Of a DNA stretch of 64,000 nt, positions 6,595 through 52,495 are shown in pieces. The stretch is from positions 1-64,000 of the forward strand of contig NZ_BMVF01000020.1 of NCBI RefSeq assembly GCF_014650575.1, in the 5' to 3' direction. The position numbers were made by a program, and so were the translations under genes. Source of the stretch: Streptomyces naganishii JCM 4654 (GTDB taxonomy: Bacteria > Actinomycetota > Actinomycetes > Streptomycetales > Streptomycetaceae). The notes below the pieces were generated by a model. That model saw only the letters and a program-made list of their open reading frames with translations, made no database searches and was not told the DNA's origin. Each line of letters begins with the position of its first letter. The stretch's first letter is position 1.

Positions 6595-8071
6595 CGCATC
6601 CGGCTCCTCCGTACGCGTCCGTTTCTGTCCCTCGCCCACCGGTAACCCCCACGTGGGCCTGGTCCGCACCGCCCTGTTCAACTGGGCGTTCGCCCGGCAC
6701 CACCAGGGCACCCTGGTCTTCCGCATCGAGGACACCGACGCGGCCCGAGACTCCGAGGAGTCCTACAACCAACTGCTCGACGCGATGCGCTGGCTGGGCT
6801 TCGACTGGGACGAGGGCCCCGAGGTCGGCGGCCCGCACGCGCCGTACCGCCAGTCGCAGCGCATGGACATCTACAAGGACGTCGCGCGAAAGCTGCTCGA
6901 CGCCGGCCACGCCTACCACTGCTACTGCTCCCAGGAGGAGCTGGACAGCCGCCGCGAGGCCGCCCGCGCCGCCGGCCGCCCCTCCGGGTACGACGGTCAC
7001 TGCCGCGACCTCAGCGCCGCCCAGGTCGAGGAGTACGAGGCCCAGGGCCGCGCCCCGATCGTCCGCTTCCGCATGCCCGACGAGACGATCACCTTCACGG
7101 ACCTGGTCCGCGGCGAGATCACCTACCTCCCGGAAAACGTCCCGGACTACGGCATCGTCCGCGCCAACGGAGCCCCGCTCTACACGCTGGTCAACCCGGT
7201 CGACGACGCCCTGATGGAGATCACCCACGTCCTGCGCGGCGAGGACCTGCTCTCCTCCACCCCGCGCCAGATCGCCCTCTACAAGGCGCTGACCGAACTG
7301 GGCGTCGCCAAGCGGACCCCCGAGTTCGGCCACCTGCCGTACGTGATGGGGGAGGGCAACAAGAAGCTCTCCAAGCGCGACCCGCAGTCCTCGCTGAACC
7401 TCTACCGCGAGCGCGGATTCCTGCCCGAGGGGCTGCTCAACTACCTGTCCCTGCTCGGCTGGTCGCTCTCGGCCGACCAGGACATCTTCTCCGTCGAGGA
7501 GATGGTCGCGGCCTTCGACATCGGGGACGTGAACCCCAACCCGGCCCGCTTCGACCTGAAGAAGTGCGAGGCGATCAACGCCGACCACATCCGGATGCTG
7601 GACGTGAAGGACTTCACGGAGCGCTGCGCGCCCTGGCTGAAGCCGCCCATCGCGCCCTGGGCGCCGGAGGACTTCGACGAGTCCAAGTGGCAGGCGATCG
7701 CCCCGTACGCCCAGACCCGCCTGAAGGTCCTGTCCGAGATCACGGACAACGTCGACTTTCTCTTCCTCGCCGAGCCGGTCTTCGACGAGGCGTCCTGGAC
7801 CAAGGCGATGAAGGAGGGCAGCGACGCCCTGCTGCGCACCGCCCGCGAGAAGCTCGAGTCGGCCGACTGGACCTCCGCGGACTCCCTCAAGGAGGCCGTC
7901 CTGGCCGCCGGCGAGGCCCACGGCCTCAAGCTCGGCAAGGCCCAGGCCCCCGTCCGCGTGGCCGTCACCGGCCGCACGGTCGGCCTCCCCCTCTTCGAGT
8001 CCCTGGAAGTCCTGGGCAAGGAGAAGACCCTCGCCAGGATCGACGCGGCCCTGGCCAGGCTCGCCGCCTGA
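6587..8071 (+). CDS. gltX: Glutamyl-tRNA synthetase
   Basis: A class I aminoacyl-tRNA synthetase of 494 aa that attaches glutamate to tRNA-Glu. Known actinobacterial enzymes are non-discriminating and also mischarge tRNA-Gln, which GatCAB then amidates. The HIGH-type motif is [10 protein letters not shown] near the N-terminus, and the KMSKS-type loop is KKLSKRD at about residue 262. The Rossmann catalytic core and the C-terminal anticodon-binding helical domain are both full length. The GTG at 6587 (protein starting [13 protein letters not shown]) was preferred over the TTG nine bases upstream. It overlaps the FAH gene by 8 nt. A tRNA array with Glu and Gln tRNAs lies 1 kb downstream. Confidence 0.97.
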
Positions 8072-9554: not shown

Positions 9555-10199
9555 TCACTCGAAGCCGTACCGCCGGGCCGACTCCTCCTCCTGGGCCAGC
9601 CGGCGCAGCGCCAGCAGCATCGGCTCGCCCAGCACCGTCCCCAGCACGGCGATCTCCACCCGCTCCGCCTCGGTGGGGTACGTCTCCACGAAGTCCAGGT
9701 CCAGCACCGCGGCCTCGTGCATCAGCCGCGCGTACGGCTCCATCCGTTCGGCGCCCCAGCCGTGCCCGAGCCGCCGGAACGCCGCGACCGCCACCACCAG
9801 CGAGCGGTAGGCCGGGGAGATGGTCACCAGGGCCTTCGCGTTCGACCAGCCCAGGGTGTCCAGGAGTTGATCCACCTCGTCCCGGGCGGCCCGCACGTAG
9901 GCGTCCTCCGCGTCCGGCTCCCGGATCTGCGGCAGCGCCCACAGGGCCGCGCCCATCCGGATCGTACGGCCCAGGGACTCGTCGTCGACGTGCCCGAGCA
10001 CCTCCCGGACCGTCGCCACCGGCAGCCGCCCCACCTGGATCAGCGCGCGCACCAGCCGCAGCCGGCGCAGATGCTCCTCGTCGTAGTCGGCGGTGGTCGC
10101 GTTGACCTGCCTGCCGGGCGCCAACAGCCCTTCCCGCAGGTAGTACTTGATCGTCGCGGTGGACACACCGCTGCGCTCGCTCAACTCGGCCAGCCGCAT
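9555..10199 (-). CDS. MerR-family transcriptional regulator
   Basis: A 214-aa regulator with an N-terminal winged helix, MRLAELSERSGVSTATIKYYLREGLL, the signature of the MerR family, followed by the RRLRLVRALIQVGRLPVATVREVL wing and dimerisation helix. The C-terminal ~130 residues are helical, without a Cys metal-binding set, so a metal-sensor role is unlikely. The start was set at the ATG at 10199, with GGAGAGG eight bases upstream; the frame continues to a TTG at 10235 without family similarity. The gene diverges from a DUF4188 gene. The gap between them holds a perfect 17-bp palindrome and a further inverted pair, so it very likely controls both genes. Confidence 0.88.
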   Translation of the reverse strand: MRLAELSERSGVSTATIKYYLREGLLAPGRQVNATTADYDEEHLRRLRLVRALIQVGRLPVATVREVLGHVDDESLGRTIRMGAALWALPQIREPDAEDAYVRAARDEVDQLLDTLGWSNAKALVTISPAYRSLVVAVAAFRRLGHGWGAERMEPYARLMHEAAVLDLDFVETYPTEAERVEIAVLGTVLGEPMLLALRRLAQEEESARRYGFE

Positions 10200-10227
10200 C
10201 TCTTGCGCCTCTCCTTGGGAAGTGACA

Positions 10228-10265
10228 CTATCCAACCATCAGCCGAATGGATAGCGCCGCTATCC
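10228..10265. promoter_or_regulatory. Palindromic operators between the MerR and DUF4188 genes
   Basis: GGATAGCG-C-CGCTATCC at 10249-10265 is a perfect 17-bp palindrome. A further CTATCCA at 10228-10234 faces TGGATAG at 10248-10254. The three GGATAG half-sites fill the divergent promoter region and are the likely binding sites of the adjacent MerR protein. Confidence 0.7.
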
Positions 10266-10287
10266 GACATGCCGCCAGGGGGTCGTC

Positions 10288-10806
10288 GTGTTCGCGAAGC
10301 CGGTACGGGGCCGTACGACCGCCGACGCCGAGGGCGATGTGGTGGTCCTGCTGATCGGGATGCGGATCAACCACTTCTGGGCGGTGCACCGGTGGCTGCC
10401 GGTCATGATGGCGATGCCCCGCATGCTGAGGGAGCTCGCGCGCGACCGCGGGCGCGGCCTGCTGGGCCACGTCCTGCTGACGGCCTCGCCACGGACGTAC
10501 TACGTCGTCCAGTACTGGGAGTCCAAGGAGCAGCTCTACGCCTACGCGGCCTCGCCCGACATGTTCCACCACCGGGTCTGGGCCCTGATCAACCGCAGGG
10601 AGCGGGAGGGCAGGGCGCGCGGCCACGTGGGCCTGTGGCACGAGGCGTACGTGGTGCCCGAGGGATCGTACGAGTCGATCTACGTCGACATGCCGGCCTT
10701 CGGTCTCGCGGCGGCCCACGGACAGGTGCCGGTCGAGCGCCGGGGGCGGACCGCCAGGGACCGCTTCGCGCACCGGTCGGCGAAGGCGGCGCAGGAAGCC
10801 AACTGA
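10288..10806 (+). CDS. DUF4188 domain protein
   Basis: A 172-aa protein of the DUF4188 family, related to small ferredoxin-like alpha/beta monooxygenase folds. Visible landmarks are VVVLLIGMRINHFWAVHRWLPVM near the N-terminus, YYVVQYWESKEQLYAYA in the middle, and HRVWALIN. The biochemical function is unknown; homologues are often annotated as transcriptional regulator-linked or monooxygenase-like proteins. The GTG start at 10288 follows CCAGGGGG. The divergent partner is the MerR regulator, and the shared palindromes suggest that it is the regulator's main target. Confidence 0.82.
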   Translation: MFAKPVRGRTTADAEGDVVVLLIGMRINHFWAVHRWLPVMMAMPRMLRELARDRGRGLLGHVLLTASPRTYYVVQYWESKEQLYAYAASPDMFHHRVWALINRREREGRARGHVGLWHEAYVVPEGSYESIYVDMPAFGLAAAHGQVPVERRGRTARDRFAHRSAKAAQEAN

Positions 10807-22695: not shown

Positions 22696-24480
22696 GTGGC
22701 GCAGGTGCCGCAGACGTTCGACGCGCTGGCGGTACGTACCTGGTGCGGTCTGGCCCTGCGTGCGCTGGGACGCGCGCGCGAGGAGATCGACGCGATCAAC
22801 GTCTATCCCGTGGCCGACGGGGACACCGGGACCAACCTGTACCTCACGGTGGAGTCGGCGGTCGCGGCGGTGGAGGCCGTGTTCACGGCCCACGAGACGC
22901 GCGGGGCGGGGCGTGAGGCGCGCGGGGCAGCGGGCGAGGCCGGCGAGGCGGGCGAGGCGGGGCGTGAGGCGCCCGGCGTGGGGGGTGCCGGCGGTGACGC
23001 CGGGGGCGGCCCCGCGGAGCCCGCCGGGGCCGCCGGGCCGTCGCTGGGGGACGCCGCCCGGGCGATGGCGCACGGCGCGCTCATCGGGGCCCGGGGGAAC
23101 TCCGGGACCATCCTCGCCCAGCTGTTGCGCGGCATGGCCGAGGTGCTGGCTCCCGGCGGCGACAGCGCGCACACCGACGGTCACGGTCTGCGGCGGGCCC
23201 TGCGGCACGCGGCCGACTCCGCCCGGCGGGCCGTGGCGCACCCGGTCGAGGGCACGGTCCTGTCGGTCGCCTCGGCCGCCGCCGACGCGGCCACCGGCAC
23301 GGAGGGCGACTGCGCGGCGGTCGCCCGGGCCGCCCACGAGGGGGCGCTGGCGGCCCTCGCCGCGACCCCCGGCCAGCTGGCGGTCCTGGAGCGCGCGGGA
23401 GTGGTCGACGCGGGCGGGAGGGGCCTGGTGGCGGTGCTCGCCGCCCTGGTGGAGACCTTCACCGGACAGGCGCCGGCCGCGGTGCCCCCGGCCGCGCACG
23501 TCGAGGGCCAGGACGTGGAAAGGGACGGCCCGGGGGCCTGCGCCCCGTCCGAGCCCGGCCCCGCCTACGAGGTGATCTACCTCCTGGAGGCGCAGGACGC
23601 GGCCGTGGACCGGCTGCGCGAGCGGCTCGACGCGCTCGGCGACTCCCTCGTGGTGGTCGGCGGCGACGGGCTGTGGAACGTGCACGTGCACGTCGACGAC
23701 GCCGGCGCCGCCGTGGAGGCGGGCGTCGAGGCGGGCCGCCCGCACCGGATCCGGATCACCCACTTCGGCGCCGGCGACGTGCACACCGGCGGTGCCGGCC
23801 GGCCGCCCCGGGAGCGGGCCCAGCGCGCCGTGGTCGCGGTCGTGCCCGGGGAGGGCCTGGCGGCCCTGTGCGGCGCGGCCGGGGCGACGACGGTGCTCGC
23901 CCGTCCCGGGGAGCCGCCCGCGAGCGGCGAGCTCGTCGAGGCGGTACGGCGGGCCCACGCGCGCGAGGTGGTGCTGCTGCCCAACGACGCCGAACTGCGC
24001 GACACCGCCGCCGCGGCGGCCGAGCAGGCGCGCGGTGAGGGGGTGCGGGTGGCGGTCATCCCGACCCGCTCGGCGGTCCAGGGCATCGCCGCGCTCGCCG
24101 TGCACGAACCGGGGCGCCGCTTCGACGAGGACGTCGTCGCGATGACCTCTGCGGCGGGCGCCACCCGCCACGCGGAGGTCACCGTCGCCGAGCACCGCTC
24201 GTGGACCACGGCCGGCATCTGCCAGGCCGGTGACGTCCTCGGGCTCATCGACGGCGACGTGGCCGTGATCGGCTCCGACGTCACGGCCACCGCCGAGACC
24301 GTCCTCGACCGCATGCTGGCGGCGGGCGGCGAACTGGTCACCCTGGTCCTCGGCGACGAGGCCCCCGACTCCGTCGCCGACCGCCTCCAGGCCCGCGTCC
24401 GCGAGTCCTACCTGGCCGTGGACACGGTCACCTACAGGGGCGGCCGCCAGGGCACCCTCCTCCTCATCGGCGTGGAATGA
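22696..24480 (+). CDS. FakA-like DAK2-domain protein
   Basis: A 594-aa cytosolic protein of the DhaL/FakA family. The N-terminal DAK2 domain has the Mg-ATP motif NVYPVADGDTGTNLYLT at about residues 35-51 and GARGNSGTILAQLL at about 133-146. The C-terminal half matches the fatty-acid kinase FakA C-terminal domain (VIYLLEAQ, ALGDSLVVVGGDGLWNVHVHVDDAGAAVEAG). FakA phosphorylates exogenous fatty acids bound to a DegV-type FakB partner; no FakB is encoded here. Between the two motifs is a Gly/Ala/Glu-rich insert of about 60 residues with a GEAGEAGEA run, probably a flexible loop. The GTG at 22696 is preceded by GGGAGG. Confidence 0.85.
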   Translation: MAQVPQTFDALAVRTWCGLALRALGRAREEIDAINVYPVADGDTGTNLYLTVESAVAAVEAVFTAHETRGAGREARGAAGEAGEAGEAGREAPGVGGAGGDAGGGPAEPAGAAGPSLGDAARAMAHGALIGARGNSGTILAQLLRGMAEVLAPGGDSAHTDGHGLRRALRHAADSARRAVAHPVEGTVLSVASAAADAATGTEGDCAAVARAAHEGALAALAATPGQLAVLERAGVVDAGGRGLVAVLAALVETFTGQAPAAVPPAAHVEGQDVERDGPGACAPSEPGPAYEVIYLLEAQDAAVDRLRERLDALGDSLVVVGGDGLWNVHVHVDDAGAAVEAGVEAGRPHRIRITHFGAGDVHTGGAGRPPRERAQRAVVAVVPGEGLAALCGAAGATTVLARPGEPPASGELVEAVRRAHAREVVLLPNDAELRDTAAAAAEQARGEGVRVAVIPTRSAVQGIAALAVHEPGRRFDEDVVAMTSAAGATRHAEVTVAEHRSWTTAGICQAGDVLGLIDGDVAVIGSDVTATAETVLDRMLAAGGELVTLVLGDEAPDSVADRLQARVRESYLAVDTVTYRGGRQGTLLLIGVE

Positions 24481-25134
24481 CACCCCACCCCGACCACACC
24501 CCCACCCCGCACAACACGAAACCTCATTACGAAGCCCCGTCCCGCGAGGACCTCCCACCCACGGCACCCCTGGCTCTGCGGTGCCTTTCCGCCCGCGGTG
24601 GTCGCCAGGCCTGCGGCGGTCGCCCGGCCCGCGTGGGGTGCTGGTCAGCGGCGGCATGGCGGCCTCGGGTCGTGCGGGGCCCTGCCTTGCGGTGTCCCTC
24701 GCTCTGTGGGGTCCCTCGCTCTGGGGTGCCCCCCGCCCTGCGGCGGTCGCCAGGCCTGCGGCGGTCGCCCGGCCCGCGTGGGGTGCTGGGTCAGCGGCGG
24801 CATGGCGGCCTCGGATCGTGCGGGGCCCTGCCTTGCGGCGGCCTTCTCTCTGCGGCGCCCCCACCCTGCGGTGCGCCTTTCCGCCCTGCGGTGGTCGCCA
24901 GGCCCGTGATGGCCGCCAGGCCTGCGGCGGTCGCCCGGCCCGCGGGTTGCTGGGTCAGCGGCGGCCTCCGGTCTGCGGGCGTCCCCGCCCTGCGGTGCCC
25001 CCGGCCCTGCGGGGGTCGAACCATGCGGTGGTCGGCGGGCCGGGGGTACCCCCGGCGGCCCTCCCGTCCTGTGGCGCCCCCGCTCCGCGATGGTCGTGCG
25101 GTGCGCTGGGGGCGCCCCAGGGGTCCGGCCCGGG
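24481..25134. repeat. Intergenic tandem-repeat island
   Basis: 654 bp between the convergent FakA-like and TPR genes with no credible gene. It contains a degenerate tandem repeat of about 145 bp. Copies at 24595-24692 and 24740-24838 match over 98-99 bp with only three differences. A third, partial copy with an 18-20 bp insertion lies at 24888-24971. Shorter CCCTGCGG and TCTGCGGTGCC words recur throughout and on to about 25040. Reading frames are open in several frames, but codon third positions are not G/C-biased as in real genes, so I take it as non-coding. Function is unknown. Confidence 0.8.
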
Positions 25135-28053
25135 TCAGTTCTTCTCTGTGAGGCGTAGGAGGCGTTCGGCCTCCTCGCGGTGGGGGTTGGGCTCTCCGTC
25201 GGCCTCGGGGGCGTCGGCGTAGGCCGCCAGGACACGGTGGGCGCGGGTCGCCGCCGCGGTGGGGCGGGAGAGGTCGGTCTCCAGCCAGGCGGCGGCGAGT
25301 TCGGCGTCCGCGCGCTCGTGCAGGGCCTCGGGGCCGAGCCGGGTGAAGACGGCCACCGCCTCGTCCAGCTGGGCCAGGGCCTCCTCGAGCAGCGCCGTGT
25401 CCTGCGCGTCCCGTCCGGCCGCGCGGGCGAGGAGGTCGCCGAACTGGCGGTGGGTGCCGCCGAGTTCACCGGTGAGGCGGGCCCGCGTCCCGGCGTCGGC
25501 CGCCGTGGTCGGCGCCGCCCGGCACTCCGTCAACGCGGCCGCCATCAGCTCCCGCGCCCCGTCCACGCCCGCCCCGGACCGCAGCGCGAGCCACGCGCGG
25601 GCGCGCAGCGAGCGCACCAGCCCGTGCGGGGCGTCCAGCGAGCGCCACAGGTCGCCCGCGCGCGCGTAGGCGGCGTCCGCCTCGGCGAGCAGCCCCGCGT
25701 GGCTCAGCGACTCGGCCGCCAGGTGCGCGAGCGTGGCGTGATCCTGCTGCTCCGGCCAGTGCCGGGCGATCTCCGCGGCCTCCAGGCGCCGTTCGGCGGC
25801 CTCCCGGTGCTCCCCGAGCTCGCTCAGGCAGTCGCCGAGCCACCACTTGGCCTGCACGACCGCCCCGTCGCCGTGGCCCTCGGCCGACAGGTCGAGCAGC
25901 GCGGACTCCAGCACCTCGGCGGCCTCGGCCCACTTCCCGAGCCGCAGCAGCAGCCCGCCCAGCATCTGCCGCGCCCAGGCGCCGAGGGTGGCGCTCTCGC
26001 CCGCCTCGTCGGCCCAGTGCGCCGCCCGCAGGGCGTGGTCGGCCGCCTCCTCGGCGCGGCCCAGGCCGCCGAGCACCTCGGCGAGCTGGAGGTGCAGCCG
26101 GGCCCGCCCGGGCGCCTCCAGGTGGTCCCCGCCGTGCTCCAGGGCGCCCCGCAGCGCCCGTTCGGCTGCGGCCGCGTCGCCCCGGTGGTGCGCGAGGGAG
26201 GCCAGCCGGGCCCCGTACTCGACCGCGAACCAGGGCAGCCCCGCGCCGACGTACCCGTCCACCGCCCGCCCGAACAGCTCCTCGGCAGCCTCCAGGTCCC
26301 CGGCGCGGGCGGCGACCTGCGCGAGCATGGCCCGCGCCTCGGCGTCCCGGGCCGCGAGCCGTACGTCCTCGTCCGTACGCCCCTCGACGAGCGCGAGCAC
26401 CTCCCGCGCGGCCTCCTCGGCGGCGGACAGCACCCGCGCGGGCACCGGCCCCTGCGCCTCCTGCACCGGCCGCATCAGGATCCGCGCCCGCGCGATCACC
26501 ACGGACGCCGTCTGCCGCACGCCGGTGCCCTCCTCGGCGTACAGCGCGAGGACGCGTTCGTACGGCTCCCCGACGGCCGTGAGCGCCCCCTCCACGTCTC
26601 CCGCCAGCGCCCGTACGTAGGCCGCACGCGCGCGTGCCGCCAGCGCCTCCCCGGGATCGCCCGCCTCGGCGTACAGCTCCGCGGCCCGCTCGAACAGCTC
26701 GGCGCCCTCGGGGCCCAGCCCCATGGCCTCGTGGTCGGCGATCTCGGCCCGGTCCCGGGCGTCCAGCCCGGCGCCCTCCGCGGCCCGCGCGACGGCCGCC
26801 CAGGCCTCCACGGCGTGCGGCTGGAGCCCGTCCGACAGCCGCCGCGCCCTCGCGAGCAGCGCGGGCAGGCCGGCCGCCTCCGGCTCCTGCGGTGCGGCGG
26901 CGGGCCGCACCCGGGGCGCCGCGGGCGCGGCGGCCGCCGGCGCGGTGCGCACCCCGAGCGGCAGCCGGTCCACCAGCGGACGCCGCGCCATACGCGCGCG
27001 CGTCTGCTCACCGACCCAGGAGGTGCCGTTGCGCGCGTCGAACCGCGCGGCCAGCGCCTCGGCCTCCCCGCGCGCGTGCACGGCGAGTTCCGCGGCCGTC
27101 CAGGTGCGCCCCGCCGGACCCGGCACCACCCGCGTTCCCAGGCCCAGTTCGGTCAGCCGGTCCATCAGCAGCGTCACCACGGCCAGGAAGTCCATCTTGC
27201 TGCGCGGCTGCCCGTCGTCGGTGAAGTACGCGGGCCGCTCGGCCAGCAGCTCCAGCGCGCGTGCCTCGTTGCCGCTCAGCGCGCAGAACTCCACGTGGTC
27301 GGCGTAGGCGGCGCGCATGCTCTCCATCGGCCGCACCAGCCGGAAGCCCCGCAGATGGTGGGCGCGCGCCTCGTCCACGCGGCCCAGCCGCAGCAGCGGC
27401 AGCAGGGAGGAGGCGAGCGCGGTGTGCGGCTCGTGCGCGCAGCCGAACTCGCCCTCCAGCACCGGGCGCCACAGTTCGACCGCCTCCGGGTCCCGGCCCC
27501 GCTCGGCCTGCCACCAGCCCTGCCCGTGCAGCTCGCACGCGTGGCAGTCCGCCATGCGGTCGCGGTCCGCGGCCAGCCACGCCGCGTACGCCCGCTCCGC
27601 GCGGGCCACGTCCCCGATGTGCGCGGCGACGCTGAACTCGGCGCTGCGCACGGCCCGTTCACTGTGCCCGGCGAGCCGGTAGCGGTGCTCCATCTCGCCG
27701 AGCCACTTCTCTATGGACGCCAGCGGGATGTGCGGCTGGTCCAGCATCCCGGCCGTCATCCACTTGAAGACCCAGTGGAGCGTGTGGGTCTCGTACTCGT
27801 CGAAGTCCTCGGGGTGTTCGTCCCACATGCGCAGCAGCCGCGCGAAGGGCACGAACATCTTCGCTTTCTCGGAGCTGTAGTTGTAGACCTTCAGCTGGTG
27901 CCCGAGCGCCTCGATGACGGCGAGCGGGATGTCCAGCCGCTCGGCCTCGGCGAGCAGTTGCTCCGCGCGCGCGTTGCGGGCCGGGCCCTCGGGGCGCTCG
28001 CCGTTCTCGGCGATCGCCCGGCGCAGCGAGTCGAAGTCCGTGATGCCGGTCAC
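25135..28053 (-). CDS. Large tetratricopeptide-repeat protein coupled to the HSP90-like gene
   Basis: A 972-aa cytosolic, almost wholly alpha-helical protein. An N-terminal ~330 residues (start TGITDFDSLRRAIAENGERP) is followed by a short Ala/Pro linker at about 365-395, and then about 570 residues of TPR-like helical pairs with recurrent A-A-E-x-F-x-x-A patterns (DLEAAEELFGRAVDGY, GKWAEAAEVLESALLDL, GEHREAAERRLEAAEIA). No enzyme motif is visible. The GTG at 28053 overlaps the HSP90-like stop codon in a GTGA arrangement, so the two proteins are made together. By analogy with eukaryotic HSP90 co-chaperones, the TPR protein may bind the HSP90-like partner; this is inference. The longer start at 28083 is possible. 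Confidence 0.85.
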   Translation of the reverse strand: MTGITDFDSLRRAIAENGERPEGPARNARAEQLLAEAERLDIPLAVIEALGHQLKVYNYSSEKAKMFVPFARLLRMWDEHPEDFDEYETHTLHWVFKWMTAGMLDQPHIPLASIEKWLGEMEHRYRLAGHSERAVRSAEFSVAAHIGDVARAERAYAAWLAADRDRMADCHACELHGQGWWQAERGRDPEAVELWRPVLEGEFGCAHEPHTALASSLLPLLRLGRVDEARAHHLRGFRLVRPMESMRAAYADHVEFCALSGNEARALELLAERPAYFTDDGQPRSKMDFLAVVTLLMDRLTELGLGTRVVPGPAGRTWTAAELAVHARGEAEALAARFDARNGTSWVGEQTRARMARRPLVDRLPLGVRTAPAAAAPAAPRVRPAAAPQEPEAAGLPALLARARRLSDGLQPHAVEAWAAVARAAEGAGLDARDRAEIADHEAMGLGPEGAELFERAAELYAEAGDPGEALAARARAAYVRALAGDVEGALTAVGEPYERVLALYAEEGTGVRQTASVVIARARILMRPVQEAQGPVPARVLSAAEEAAREVLALVEGRTDEDVRLAARDAEARAMLAQVAARAGDLEAAEELFGRAVDGYVGAGLPWFAVEYGARLASLAHHRGDAAAAERALRGALEHGGDHLEAPGRARLHLQLAEVLGGLGRAEEAADHALRAAHWADEAGESATLGAWARQMLGGLLLRLGKWAEAAEVLESALLDLSAEGHGDGAVVQAKWWLGDCLSELGEHREAAERRLEAAEIARHWPEQQDHATLAHLAAESLSHAGLLAEADAAYARAGDLWRSLDAPHGLVRSLRARAWLALRSGAGVDGARELMAAALTECRAAPTTAADAGTRARLTGELGGTHRQFGDLLARAAGRDAQDTALLEEALAQLDEAVAVFTRLGPEALHERADAELAAAWLETDLSRPTAAATRAHRVLAAYADAPEADGEPNPHREEAERLLRLTEKN

Positions 28054-29882
28054 CGGCGGCGGTCCTCCCCGTGAGTGGCCCACTCCAGCAGGCCGATGAA
28101 CGCCCGGTTCAGCAGCGCCGAGTCGGCCGGCCGCAGCGGGCGCTGCGCCATCAGCAGCGCCTGCCCGTACAGCGACTCGGTCGCGGTGCCGATCAGCTCC
28201 GGGTCACCGAGTGAACTGATCCTGCGGATCAGCGGGTTGAGATGGTTGAGCACCAGACGCGCGCGTGGCGTGCCGCCGCGCAGCGAGCCGAGGATGCCCG
28301 CCCACAGGTCGTCGGCCTGCGCCTCGGCCTCGGCGCGCGCCTGCTCGTGCCGGGCCGCCCGGTCGTCCAGGTGCAGCGCGGGCACGGACAGCGGGTGGAA
28401 GGCGCGCAGCACGACGTCGCAGCCCAGCGGGTCCAGCCTGGCCCGCGCGGCCGCCAGGAAGTCCGACAGGGCCAGCTCCTCGGCCGGCTCGACGGAGTCC
28501 AGGTGCGCGGTCACGGTGTCCGCGTCCAACTCGGCGACCGCCGTGCCCGGCCGCACCGACGGCAGCGCCTCGACCAGCTCGCTGTCGTAGGTGTAGCCGC
28601 CGTTGACGACGCCGATGCCCTGCGCCGAGGCGATCGGCGCGACCTGCCGGTACTCCTCCACCGTCCGCGTGAAGTGCACCACCGGGTGCCGCTGCGCGAA
28701 CTCCTCCAGGGACAGCCGCCCGTCGGTCGTCTCGAACGGCAGCCACGGCAGCATGGTGCGCAGCATCTCCGCGTCGTGCCGCGCCAGCGACTTCACGCCC
28801 AGGTGGTGCACGGACAGGAACGCGGCCAGCCGCTCCGGGTCCCCGGCCGCCAGGGAGGTCAGCCAGGACCTGATCCGCTCGCCCAGCGCCTCACGGACCC
28901 CGGCCAGCGTCTCGTCCTCGTACAGCGACTCGCGCGAGGCGGTCGGCCGCAGGCTGTCGGTGTCGAGCACGCAGCGCACGAAGAACGCCCAGTCGGGCAG
29001 CAGCTGTTCGGCCCGCTCGGTCAGCAGCATGCCCTTCAGGTGCACCCGGTGGCCGGCCCGCTGGGCGGGGCTGACCGCCGACGGCAGCACGTACGCCACA
29101 CCGCGGATCCCGGCCAGCGGCACGTCCAGGTCGATGGTGTCCAGCGGGGTGAAGCCGAACAGCTCGTGGCAGTGCCGGGCGAGCGCGACCCGGCGGTTGG
29201 CGGGGGAGGGGTACGCACGGTCCCAGGGCGCGGGCAGGTCGGTGACCGCCTCCTCGCCCACCCGGACGTCGTAGGGCAGCAGCGACCCGAAGTCCCGGGC
29301 CAGCGCCAGCACCCGCTCCCCGGTCAGCCACTCGCCCGCCCCGGCCCGCGCCCGCAGGTGCACGGTGGTGCCGGGTTCCGGGCGGGCCGAGTCGGGCAGG
29401 GTACGCACGGTGTACGAGCCGTCGTCGCACGCCGTCCACTCCACCGGCGGCGCGCCGGGCGTACGGGCGCTGCGGCTGACCACGCGGATCCGCTCGGCCA
29501 CCACGAAGCAGGCCAGCAGGCCGATGCCGAACTGGCCGAGGAACTCCGAGCGGGCCGCCTGGAGCCCCTCGGCGCGCTTGGAGCTGCGCCCGATGGTCGC
29601 CAGCAGCTCGTGTACGTCGGACTCGGTGAGGCCGATGCCGGTGTCCTCCACGCGCAGCGTGGCGCCGTCGGCGGACAGCCGCACCCGGGCGGGCGCGTCC
29701 GGGTCGCCGGCGCGGCGGGCGGTGATGGCGTCCACGGCGTTCTGCAGCAGCTCGCGCAGATAGACCCGGGGACTGGAGTACAGGTGGTGCGAGAGCAGGT
29801 CCACCAGACCGCGCAGGTCGACCTGGAACGTGTGGGCGGACGGGGATGCCTGGGGTGATGCCGGTGAGGTCTGGGAGTCCAT
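28050..29882 (-). CDS. HSP90-family (HtpG-like) ATPase
   Basis: A 610-aa HSP90-like chaperone. The GHKL ATP site is intact: YLRELLQNAVDAI with Glu44 and Asn48, VEDTGIGLT with Asp80, and GQFGIGLLACFVV. The middle domain follows, with HRVHLKGMLLTERAEQLLPDWAFFVRCVLD and the conserved LRPTASRESLYED, where the Arg contacts ATP in HSP90. The C-terminal region is shorter and diverged from HtpG. The first ~18 residues are Ser/Pro/Gln-rich. The ATG at 29882 is listed; a GTG two codons upstream is also possible. It diverges from recG and is coupled to the TPR gene. It may be a specialised chaperone rather than the general HtpG. Confidence 0.88.
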   Translation of the reverse strand: MDSQTSPASPQASPSAHTFQVDLRGLVDLLSHHLYSSPRVYLRELLQNAVDAITARRAGDPDAPARVRLSADGATLRVEDTGIGLTESDVHELLATIGRSSKRAEGLQAARSEFLGQFGIGLLACFVVAERIRVVSRSARTPGAPPVEWTACDDGSYTVRTLPDSARPEPGTTVHLRARAGAGEWLTGERVLALARDFGSLLPYDVRVGEEAVTDLPAPWDRAYPSPANRRVALARHCHELFGFTPLDTIDLDVPLAGIRGVAYVLPSAVSPAQRAGHRVHLKGMLLTERAEQLLPDWAFFVRCVLDTDSLRPTASRESLYEDETLAGVREALGERIRSWLTSLAAGDPERLAAFLSVHHLGVKSLARHDAEMLRTMLPWLPFETTDGRLSLEEFAQRHPVVHFTRTVEEYRQVAPIASAQGIGVVNGGYTYDSELVEALPSVRPGTAVAELDADTVTAHLDSVEPAEELALSDFLAAARARLDPLGCDVVLRAFHPLSVPALHLDDRAARHEQARAEAEAQADDLWAGILGSLRGGTPRARLVLNHLNPLIRRISSLGDPELIGTATESLYGQALLMAQRPLRPADSALLNRAFIGLLEWATHGEDRRR

Positions 29883-30078
29883 CGTCACGGCGCCGTTGGG
29901 GGGACCAGGAGGCTCCTGAGGGAACAGAAGCCGCCGGTGACGGCGCGGGGTCGGGCGGTCCCTGGTGGGGCGGTGACCGCGGAAGGGAGGCCGGAGCGCG
30001 TCATCCTAGAGCCCGGACGACCCGGCTGACCAGGGGTTTCCCGGCACGTATACGGCATTGTCGGTGGCGTGGTGTGCA

Positions 30079-32370
30079 ATGGATCTCGTGCCCGCACTGG
30101 AAGAACCACTCAAAAAGGTGCTCGGCCCCGCCACCGCGAAGGTGATGGCCGAGCACCTCGGCCTGCACACCGTCGGCGACCTCCTCCACCACTACCCGCG
30201 CAGATACGAGGAGCGCGGCCAGCTCACCCACCTCGCCGACCTGCCCATGGACGAGCACGTCACCGTGGTCGCCCAGGTCGCCGACGCCCGCCTGCACACC
30301 TTCGCCTCCGCCCGCGCGCCGCGCGGCAAGGGCCAGCGCCTGGAGGTGACGATCACCGACGGCAGCGGCCGGCTCCAGCTGGTCTTCTTCGGCAACGGCG
30401 TGCACAAGCCCCACAAGGAACTCCTGCCGGGCACCCGCGCGATGTTCGCGGGCAAGGTCTCCGTCTTCAACCGCAGACTTCAACTGGCCCATCCGGCATA
30501 CGAGTTGCTGAAGGGCGACACCGAGGAGACCGTCGAGTCCTGGGCCGGCGCCCTCATCCCGCTCTACCCCGCCACCGCCAAGCTGGAGTCCTGGAAGATC
30601 GGCAAGGCGGTCCAGACGGCCCTGCCCAGCGCCCAGGAGGCCCTCGACCCGCTGCCCGGCGCCCTGCGCGAGGGCCGGGGCCTGGTCCCCCTCCCCGAGG
30701 CCCTGCTCAAGATCCACCGCCCGCAGACCAAGGCCGACATCGAGGACGCCCGCGCCCGCCTGAAGTGGGACGAGGCCTTCGTCCTCCAGGTCGCCCTCGC
30801 CCGCCGCCGCCACGCCGACGCCCAGCTGCCCGCCGTACCCCGCAAGGCCGGCCCGCGGGGCCTCCTCGCGGACTTCGACGACCGCCTGCCCTTCACCCTC
30901 ACCGAGGGCCAGCGCAAGGTGTCCCGCGAGATCTTCGACGACCTGGCGGCCGAGCACCCGATGCACCGGCTGCTCCAGGGCGAGGTCGGCAGCGGCAAGA
31001 CCCTCGTCGCGCTGCGCGCCATGCTCGCCGTCGTCGACGCGGGCGGGCAGGCCGCGATGCTCGCGCCCACCGAGGTCCTGGCCCAGCAGCACCACCGGTC
31101 GATCACCGAGATGATGGGCGAGCTCGCCAGTTGGGGGCTGTGGCGCGAAGCGCCTCCGCAGAAGGGCGGTGGCGGGCGACGGGAGGGCGGCATGCTCGGC
31201 GGGGCGGAGCACGCCACCAAGGTGGTCCTGCTCACCGGCTCCATGGGCGCCGCCGCCCGCCGCCAGGCCCTGCTCGACCTGGCCACCGGCGAGGCCGGCC
31301 TCGTCATCGGCACCCACGCGCTGATCGAGGACAAGGTCCAGTTCCACGACCTCGGACTGGTCGTCGTCGACGAGCAGCACCGCTTCGGCGTCGAGCAGCG
31401 CGACGCCCTGCGCGGCAAGGGCAAGCAGCCCCCGCACCTGCTCGTCATGACCGCCACGCCGATTCCGCGCACGGTCGCGATGACGGTCTTCGGCGACCTG
31501 GAGACCTCCGTCCTGGACCAGCTCCCCGCCGGGCGCTCGCCCATCGCCAGCCATGTCGTCCCGGCCGCCGACAAGCCCCACTTCCTGGCCCGCGCCTGGG
31601 AGCGGGTGCGCGAGGAGGTCGCCAAGGGCCACCAGGCGTACGTCGTCTGCCCCCGCATCGGGGACGAGGAGGACGACCCGGGGAAGGGCGCCTCCGGCAA
31701 GGCCTCCGGCGGCAAGGCCTCCGGCGGCGCGGGCGCGGGCGAGGAGGCCGACCGGCGCCCGCCGCTCGCCGTCCTGGAGGTCGCCGACCAGCTCGCCCGC
31801 GGCCCCCTGAGCGGCCTGCGGGTGGAGGTGCTGCACGGCCGCATGCAGCCCGACGACAAGGACGCCGTCATGCGCCGCTTCGCCGCCGGCGACGCCGACG
31901 TGCTCGTCGCCACCACGGTCATCGAGGTCGGCGTCAACGTCCCCAACGCCACCGTCATGGTCATCATGGACGCCGACCGCTTCGGCGTCTCCCAGCTGCA
32001 CCAGCTGCGCGGCCGCGTGGGCCGCGGCTCCGCGCCCGGCCTGTGCCTGCTGGTCACCGAGATGCCCGAGGCGAGCCCGGCCCGCGGCCGGCTGAACGCG
32101 GTGGCGGCCACCCTCGACGGCTTCGAGCTCTCCCGCATCGACCTCGAACAGCGCCGCGAGGGCGACGTCCTCGGCCAGGCCCAGTCCGGCGCCCGCTCCA
32201 GCCTGCGGGTCCTCGCCGTCATCGAGGACGAGGAGATCATCGCCGAGGCCCGCGAGGAGGCCGCCGCCGTGGTCGCCGCCGACCCCGAGCTGGAGCACCT
32301 GCCCGGCCTGCGCACGGCCCTGGACGCGCTCCTGGACGAGGAGAGGGAGCAGTACCTGGAAAAGGGGTGA
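30079..32370 (+). CDS. recG: ATP-dependent DNA helicase RecG
   Basis: A 763-aa superfamily 2 helicase that reverses stalled forks and branch-migrates Holliday junctions. The N-terminal wedge/OB-fold (DLLHHYPRRYEERG, GQRLEVTITDGSGRLQLVFFG) binds branched DNA. Walker A is LLQGEVGSGKTLVALRAM, Walker B is VVVDEQHRFG (DEQH rather than DEXH), then MTATPIPRTVAMTVFGDL and the helicase C block QLHQLRGRVGRG. Two Gly/Ser/Lys-rich inserts (KGGGGRREGG and a KASGGKASGGAGAG run) are lineage-specific loops. The ATG at 30079 gives MDLVPALEEPLKK; a GTG at 30088 is also possible. Confidence 0.96.
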   Translation: MDLVPALEEPLKKVLGPATAKVMAEHLGLHTVGDLLHHYPRRYEERGQLTHLADLPMDEHVTVVAQVADARLHTFASARAPRGKGQRLEVTITDGSGRLQLVFFGNGVHKPHKELLPGTRAMFAGKVSVFNRRLQLAHPAYELLKGDTEETVESWAGALIPLYPATAKLESWKIGKAVQTALPSAQEALDPLPGALREGRGLVPLPEALLKIHRPQTKADIEDARARLKWDEAFVLQVALARRRHADAQLPAVPRKAGPRGLLADFDDRLPFTLTEGQRKVSREIFDDLAAEHPMHRLLQGEVGSGKTLVALRAMLAVVDAGGQAAMLAPTEVLAQQHHRSITEMMGELASWGLWREAPPQKGGGGRREGGMLGGAEHATKVVLLTGSMGAAARRQALLDLATGEAGLVIGTHALIEDKVQFHDLGLVVVDEQHRFGVEQRDALRGKGKQPPHLLVMTATPIPRTVAMTVFGDLETSVLDQLPAGRSPIASHVVPAADKPHFLARAWERVREEVAKGHQAYVVCPRIGDEEDDPGKGASGKASGGKASGGAGAGEEADRRPPLAVLEVADQLARGPLSGLRVEVLHGRMQPDDKDAVMRRFAAGDADVLVATTVIEVGVNVPNATVMVIMDADRFGVSQLHQLRGRVGRGSAPGLCLLVTEMPEASPARGRLNAVAATLDGFELSRIDLEQRREGDVLGQAQSGARSSLRVLAVIEDEEIIAEAREEAAAVVAADPELEHLPGLRTALDALLDEEREQYLEKG

Positions 32371-51588: not shown

Positions 51589-51607
51589 CCGCCGGCCGCA
51601 CGCCACA

Positions 51608-51648
51608 CCGGAGCCCCGCCCCCTGATCCAGTGGGGGCGGGGCTCCGG
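51608..51648 (+). terminator. Hairpin terminator of ftsY
   Basis: CCGGAGCCCCGCCCCC and its exact complement, a 16-bp stem with a 9-nt loop, 20 bp after the ftsY stop. Confidence 0.82.
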
Positions 51649-52495
51649 CGTTGTGCCGGGGGACGGGGCCCTACGCCGGGCAGTGACGCCGCTCGCGCCC
51701 GCACCGGCGAGCGGTGCGGGACCGGCGCATCCGTGTGCGCCCTCCCGGCTGGAGCCCGACCGACCGGGGGCGCGCTCGCGCCTGCCGGGGCGCGGTGCTT
51801 GGGCCGCGCGGTGCTCGGCCCGCGCGGTACTCGGCCGCCGGGGCGTGGCTACGCGCGGGAGCGGGGGGTGCGCAGGCGAGGGTGCGGCGAAGGGGGCGGC
51901 CTTCCGAGGCGGACCGGTCCTGGGCCGCGCGGCCGGACCCGGTCGGAAGGCGTGGTCGTGTTCGTGGCGCCGACGTCCGTCGCTCGGGGAGGTCCCACCT
52001 CCGGGCCGGGTCCGGACCCGGCCCGGCCGACGCCGCACTCGTGCCTGGCGCCCGCGCGCGGTGCCGATCTCGTGGCGCCCGCGCCCGGGCGTGCTCGGCC
52101 GATGGCTCGGCGCTGCTCGGTCGTCGCCACGCCGGTACGTGCCGCCGGTGCCCGTCGCTTGAGGAGGACCCGCCTCCGGATCGGGTCCGGGGGTGTCCGG
52201 CCGAGGCCGCGCATCGCGCTTGCCGGGGGCGCGCGCTGCTCGGGCCCGCGCCCGGCCGCCCCTGTGGGACCCCGCGTCCGGGCTTGTGGGACCTCTGTCC
52301 GGGCCTGTGCTGCCCGCGTTCAGAGCGTGCTGCCCGCGTCCAGCCGTGTGGGACCTGGCGTCCGGCCTGTGCTGCCCGCGTTCAGGACGCGCTGCCCGCG
52401 CCCGGCCGCCCCCGTAGGACTCGCGACCGGCCCCGCGGGGGCCCCGCGTCCGGCCCCGTGGGCCCTCGCGTGCCGCCCGTGCCTGCCCGTGCTGC
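51649..52495. repeat. Second intergenic repeat-rich island
   Basis: About 850 bp between convergent ftsY and the primase-polymerase-like gene, with no credible gene. Degenerate direct repeats are seen: 41-bp copies at 51975-52015 and 52150-52190 (34 of 41 identical), and CCTGTGCTGCCCGCGTTCAG exactly repeated at 52304-52323 and 52366-52385 within a 62-bp period. Many CTGCCCGCG and GTGGGACC words fill 52250-52400. All plus frames are largely open, but this reflects extreme G/C content and no frame has normal codon bias. Confidence 0.75.

Follow-up and report, generated by a model that had tools for sequence, protein, structure and literature searches.

Bacterial intergenic minisatellites and VNTR loci, such as the mycobacterial MIRU-VNTR loci, are built of imperfect units of tens of base pairs or more that lie head to tail and vary between lineages. 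In the window (the whole stretch of DNA analysed, 64,000 nucleotides of Streptomyces naganishii JCM 4654) we characterised a repeat island that resembles such loci: it consists of imperfect head-to-tail units in intergenic DNA and differs between lineages. It departs from MIRU-VNTR in its hierarchy of 18-bp units within a 145-bp unit, in its strong degeneracy and in being, by sequence, alone in its genome. The likeness rests on differences between species, and from one species to another the repeat in this spacer differs altogether.

A second point of comparison is offered by the tandem repeats of the archaeal Borg elements. The Borg repeats are described (PMC9879509) as lineage-specific, independently arising and fast-evolving, with 14-38% of intergenic unit lengths divisible by three; they are perfect, A-enriched and often lie within genes. 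The island shares with the repeats so described the lineage specificity, independent origin and fast evolution, and differs from them in being imperfect, GC-rich and located in a spacer (PMC9879509).

In the reading that we consider very probable, slippage or unequal recombination has built up the island as a young minisatellite of a single lineage, non-coding and neutral, at a site that tolerates duplications. It is a further case of a known kind, an ordinary minisatellite. Taken alone, this non-coding repeat, which shows no sign of function, is of little importance; it illustrates clearly how fast DNA turns over between converging genes in a GC-rich genome.

Architecture of the repeat island

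The interval 24481-25134 is precisely the stop-to-stop DNA between a YloV/FakA-like gene and a convergent TPR gene, as delimited by the open reading frames and by a home-made, codon-bias based gene caller, which places the start of the TPR gene at 28053. The first-pass annotation had seen here a degenerate ~145-bp tandem repeat between convergent genes, and both parts of this description were borne out. TRF reported an array of period 145 with a score of 501, against a best score of 99 among 500 dinucleotide-preserving shuffles of the spacer (Table 1). Minisatellites are head-to-tail units of ~10-200 bp, above chance, in non-coding DNA, and the island shows 2.2 copies of 145 bp at that score, situated between two stops in DNA of flat codon-position GC.

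Table 1. Coordinates of the repeat island, its parts and the surrounding genes (positions in the window)
Feature	Position	Strand	Basis or remark
YloV/FakA-like gene (DAK2 domain)	22696..24480	+	Pfam FakA-like_C, Dak2; NCBIfam TIGR03599
Stop-to-stop spacer holding the repeat island	24481..25134	.	ORFs, Pfam, codon-bias gene calling, flat codon-position GC
145-bp tandem array, 2.2 copies	24576..24904	+	TRF score 501, 87% matches; shuffle maximum 99
Copy A	24594..24693	+	18-bp units x2, at 24594 and 24612
Short 17-bp sub-array within the island	24694..24727	+	TRF score 52; weak, shuffled spacers score as high
Copy B	24739..24839	+	18-bp units x2, at 24739 and 24757
Terminator-like site, weak	24828-24841	+	Simple scan
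Copy C, degenerate	24887..24990	+	18-bp units x3, at 24887, 24905 and 24923
Outlying degenerate 18-bp unit	25024..25041	+	2 mismatches to pattern
Terminator-like site, weak	25122-25136	+	Simple scan
TPR gene beside HSP90 family gene	25135..28083	-	Pfam TPR_12, gene calling
HSP90 family gene, next after TPR gene	28050-29888	-	
recG	30079-32370	+	

A repeat search gave copy spacings of 145 and 148. Alignment of copy A with copy B (24594-24693 versus 24739-24839) showed three differences in a core of ~99 bp (T/C, a 1-bp insertion and G/A), and one further mismatch at either chosen end; the earlier count of three differences over 98-99 bp holds in this core alignment. Copy C, previously described as a third partial copy with an insertion, carries an insertion of exactly 18 bp relative to copy B and then decays. 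The shorter unit from which the array had been proposed to grow could be named: it is 18 bp long, reads TGCGGYGGTCGCCMGGCC or close to it, adjoins its neighbours head to tail and occurs 2, 2 and 3 times in copies A, B and C, respectively. The recurrent CTGCGG words pointed out in the same annotation number 11 on the + strand of the spacer and 0 as CCGCAG (shuffle mean 1.0, maximum 4), with a total of 49 across the 64-kb window. A CRISPR array was rejected, as the 18-bp units abut, with no unique spacers of similar length between them.

With the genome available as a draft assembly in 75 contigs, the repeat might be viewed as an assembly error. The copies, however, differ by substitutions and by 1-bp and 18-bp insertions, unlike the product of a simple duplication error, and we hold this explanation to be very improbable.

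We infer the neutrality of the island, the molecular process and the order of the steps. A GC-rich 18-bp word would have been copied in tandem, after which a block of two such words together with neighbouring spacer would have been duplicated as a unit of ~145 bp. Since then, individual 18-bp words would have been added to or dropped from the copies, and the copies would have eroded through point mutation. These steps may be the work of slippage during replication or of unequal recombination, and the products could have persisted in a spacer between two gene ends that is under few constraints, because a duplication there spares both reading frames and both promoters. The island is most likely neutral. 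A young duplication and gene conversion between the copies are not distinguishable on these data.

Coding, transcript and mobile-element readings

The spacer shows flat codon-position GC (0.77/0.77/0.79, versus 0.84/0.57/0.95 in the upstream gene), in agreement with the lack of coding bias observed in the first-pass annotation. A repeat protein could be proposed from the two forward frames that are open throughout the spacer, one of which extends over 224 amino acids from an ATG at 24477 to 25151. Open frames are nonetheless common in shuffled spacers, 474/500 of which hold at least one and 326/500 at least two. Neither copy spacing, 145 or 148 bp, is a multiple of 3, which places the copies in different frames, and the 224-aa frame has no Pfam match. 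A conserved reading frame under purifying selection was not seen, and no homologue was found in which dN/dS is measurable. A protein-coding repeat gene fails on both codon-position bias and a frame-preserving period, and that the island encodes a repeat protein is scarcely credible.

A structured non-coding RNA was likewise rejected. Both strands of the island fold less stably than 20/20 shuffles (z +2.4 and +1.9), and no Rfam family matches it at E up to 1. A simple scan of positions 24300-25300 detected two weak terminator-like sites, both on the + strand, against a shuffle mean of 0.2, and this is the sole result that leans towards function. Combined with the bidirectional transcript ends that exist in S. 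clavuligerus (PMC8269248), it would suit a functional terminator or insulator serving the two convergent transcripts. Such a role appears improbable given that both strands fold worse than all 20 shuffles, that the orthologous spacer is shorter than 100 bp in 45/64 loci, and that the core of the island has no conserved counterpart in the closest relative found.

The units are short and repeated, and other Streptomyces spacers at the YloV/TPR site have short dispersed words in common, features that could suggest the arrival in the spacer of a mobile or palindromic element of dispersed type (REP, MITE). The 7.8-Mb genome holds 5 exact matches to the TGCGGYGGTCGCCMGGCC pattern, all of them inside the island. 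Allowing at most 2 mismatches, the whole genome yielded 21 forward and 19 reverse matches, versus 23 and 16 for a backwards control, which leaves the 18-bp unit without an excess elsewhere in the genome. When the island was compared with its own genome, a single other match of 38 bp was obtained (E 5.9e-4; 40 scored of 197 candidates), and no second copy was detected among the candidates scored. The words common to other spacers do not involve the island of the window. Elements of the REP/BIME/MITE type occur in many copies, and this genome has one full copy; an origin as a dispersed repeat is therefore about as implausible as a coding function.

Searches of relatives gave weak matches to the island in 26/61 genomes (its own included), against 23/61 for the backwards sequence, with usually 9 candidates scored per genome; at a rate so close to that of the control, the weak similarities are background.

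The YloV/TPR spacer in other Streptomyces

The comparisons of this locus are between species, with one genome per species. Among the matches listed from 392 genomes of the genus (own included), the closest relative at the locus is G130, whose flanks are 95% and 92% identical to those of the window. Its spacer measures 261 bp and is occupied by a 17-bp unit repeated 4.5 times (score 138). The island core aligned with this spacer at a score of 32, which was reached by 42/500 shuffles, indicating no significant similarity. At their outer edges the two spacers are marginally similar (14/500 and 8/500 shuffles reach the score), so that perhaps the outermost bases alone are common to both. In the next two relatives, G364 and G302, matches are confined to the flanks. 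The recent expansion suggested in the first-pass annotation agrees with these findings: the array is lineage-specific, and the closest relative found lacks it and has a different one.

To extend the comparison, loci were fetched with the YloV protein (n=80; 79 from Streptomyces and one from an 'Actinobacteria bacterium'). Counts of YloV/TPR spacers take in the 64 loci with a TPR gene; 15 others, including L069, were left out. The 64 spacers range from -73 to 2572 bp, 19 of them being at least 100 bp long and 45 under 100 bp. Arrays were scored at a period of at least 10 and a score of at least 80, in spacers longer than 20 bp; the 17/64 spacers of 20 bp or less all fall under the 100-bp cut. 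Arrays were present in 9 of the 19 spacers of at least 100 bp (L018, L022, L027, L035, L038, L060, L079, L081 and L090), or in 8/18 without L079, whose 2572 bp may include another gene. At L079 the array falls within a 613-bp convergent spacer that the gene caller places at 9760-10372, ahead of the TPR stop. Comparison of the island with the relatives' YloV/TPR spacers of at least 100 bp by blastn, at E up to 1e-3, found nothing similar.

Several of the relatives' spacers have short words in common with each other. A short dispersed word, present as GGGGAACTGCGCGA or as the complement, was found in 8/80 of the relatives' loci, among them the L081, L090 and L093 spacers; it is absent from the window and from 800 kb sampled of the window's genome.

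At L038 the spacer (7729-8010) consists of a 136-bp unit repeated 2.1 times in copies that are 100% identical. Judged by eye, this unit resembles the last codons of both convergent genes, whose real ends are found outside it. L038 is possibly a snapshot of a fresh junction duplication, or else an assembly error in a draft contig. A tandem duplication across a convergent junction would leave both genes whole, because each reading frame reaches its own stop first. The island itself shows no detectable relics of its flanking gene ends, since in each of four comparisons at least 215, and up to all 300, of 300 shuffles scored as high; the route suggested by L038 is therefore not demonstrated for the island, and an origin from its own flanking gene ends was rejected for want of a signal above shuffles.

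Across species the YloV/TPR spacer forms a natural series, from the bare junction through duplicated gene ends (L038) and short-unit arrays to the hierarchical array, which could serve to test whether converging transcription promotes tandem duplication.

Tandem arrays and gene orientation

We surveyed spacers by orientation in a sample of the island's own genome comprising 41 stretches and 864 kb, window included; sampling was non-random, with the first 20 kb of contigs making up 19/41 stretches. The survey took in spacers below 1500 bp and free of N, which set aside one divergent and one co-directional spacer of the relatives for their N. Among spacers of at least 100 bp, arrays were found in 16/60 convergent (the island itself counted), 7/122 divergent and 24/200 co-directional spacers, and shuffled spacers gave on average 0.1 or fewer arrays per orientation class. 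In this non-random sample the convergent excess has a Fisher p of 0.0002 versus divergent and 0.008 versus co-directional spacers. Relative to co-directional spacers, the convergent excess is seen in the 100-250 bp range (10/36 versus 7/130) and not in the 250-1500 bp range (6/24 versus 17/70). Of the co-directional arrays, 15/24 are centred in that half of the spacer which adjoins the end of the upstream gene.

In the relatives' loci arrays were found in 11/40 convergent, 7/152 divergent and 5/123 co-directional spacers. These counts are not independent support, because 7/11 of the convergent arrays (8 with L079) are the YloV/TPR spacer already examined; L038, which is in the 9/19 tally, is absent from the rows listed in this survey. 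Where YloV is followed by a co-directional recG, arrays occurred in 0/15 spacers, 7/15 of which are at least 100 bp long; in these spacers the recG start was taken as the start of the tblastn hit, and the 890 bp of L069 include an HSP90 fragment. Arrays are frequent in convergent spacers, and they are dissimilar.

The orientation pattern fits a tolerance of duplications behind genes and does not separate tolerance from a push by converging transcription. Under the second explanation, converging transcription would actively promote tandem duplication, by collision, supercoiling or R-loops, and the island would be the product of a mutational hot spot in addition to relaxed constraint. The larger share of convergent spacers with arrays, compared with divergent and co-directional ones, speaks for it, as does the contrast between 0/15 arrays where recG is co-directional after YloV and 9/19 at the convergent site. 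Relaxed constraint, however, predicts the same pattern, and at 250-1500 bp co-directional spacers carry arrays as often as convergent ones. Active promotion is in our view unlikely, although the least unlikely of the explanations that compete with a tolerated, neutral minisatellite.

A broader proposal, to which we give similarly little credence, is that tandem duplication breaks out repeatedly and independently at convergent junctions in Streptomyces, with head-on transcription driving duplications that are not merely tolerated. Each lineage would have its own units, sometimes derived from gene ends as at L038, and the island would be one burst. If so, convergent spacers would be overwritten between close species. 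With the neutral minisatellite as the preferred reading, the island keeps a modest interest, in that differing arrays recur in the YloV/TPR spacer and in other convergent spacers, and use in strain typing is conceivable if such loci vary within species. In short listings from the open-licence PubMed Central literature we found no paper on tandem arrays in convergent Streptomyces spacers, which is a weak negative.

Two further arrays of the same genome were noted in convergent spacers. The window contains a second tandem array at 52271-52408 (62 bp x2.2, score 197), in the convergent spacer 51589-52495. A larger island, L138:17085-17808 (174 bp x3.3), has a TRF score of 871, and the island described here ranks second behind it in the own-genome sample.

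In the window the TPR-HSP90 pair sits between yloV and recG (25135-29888). The TPR gene is present in 64/80 of the relatives' loci and absent from 15/80; at L078, on a short contig, nothing was found downstream. At L069 the HSP90 gene is reduced to a fragment. The absence of the TPR gene from 15/80 loci, together with this fragment, suggests loss.
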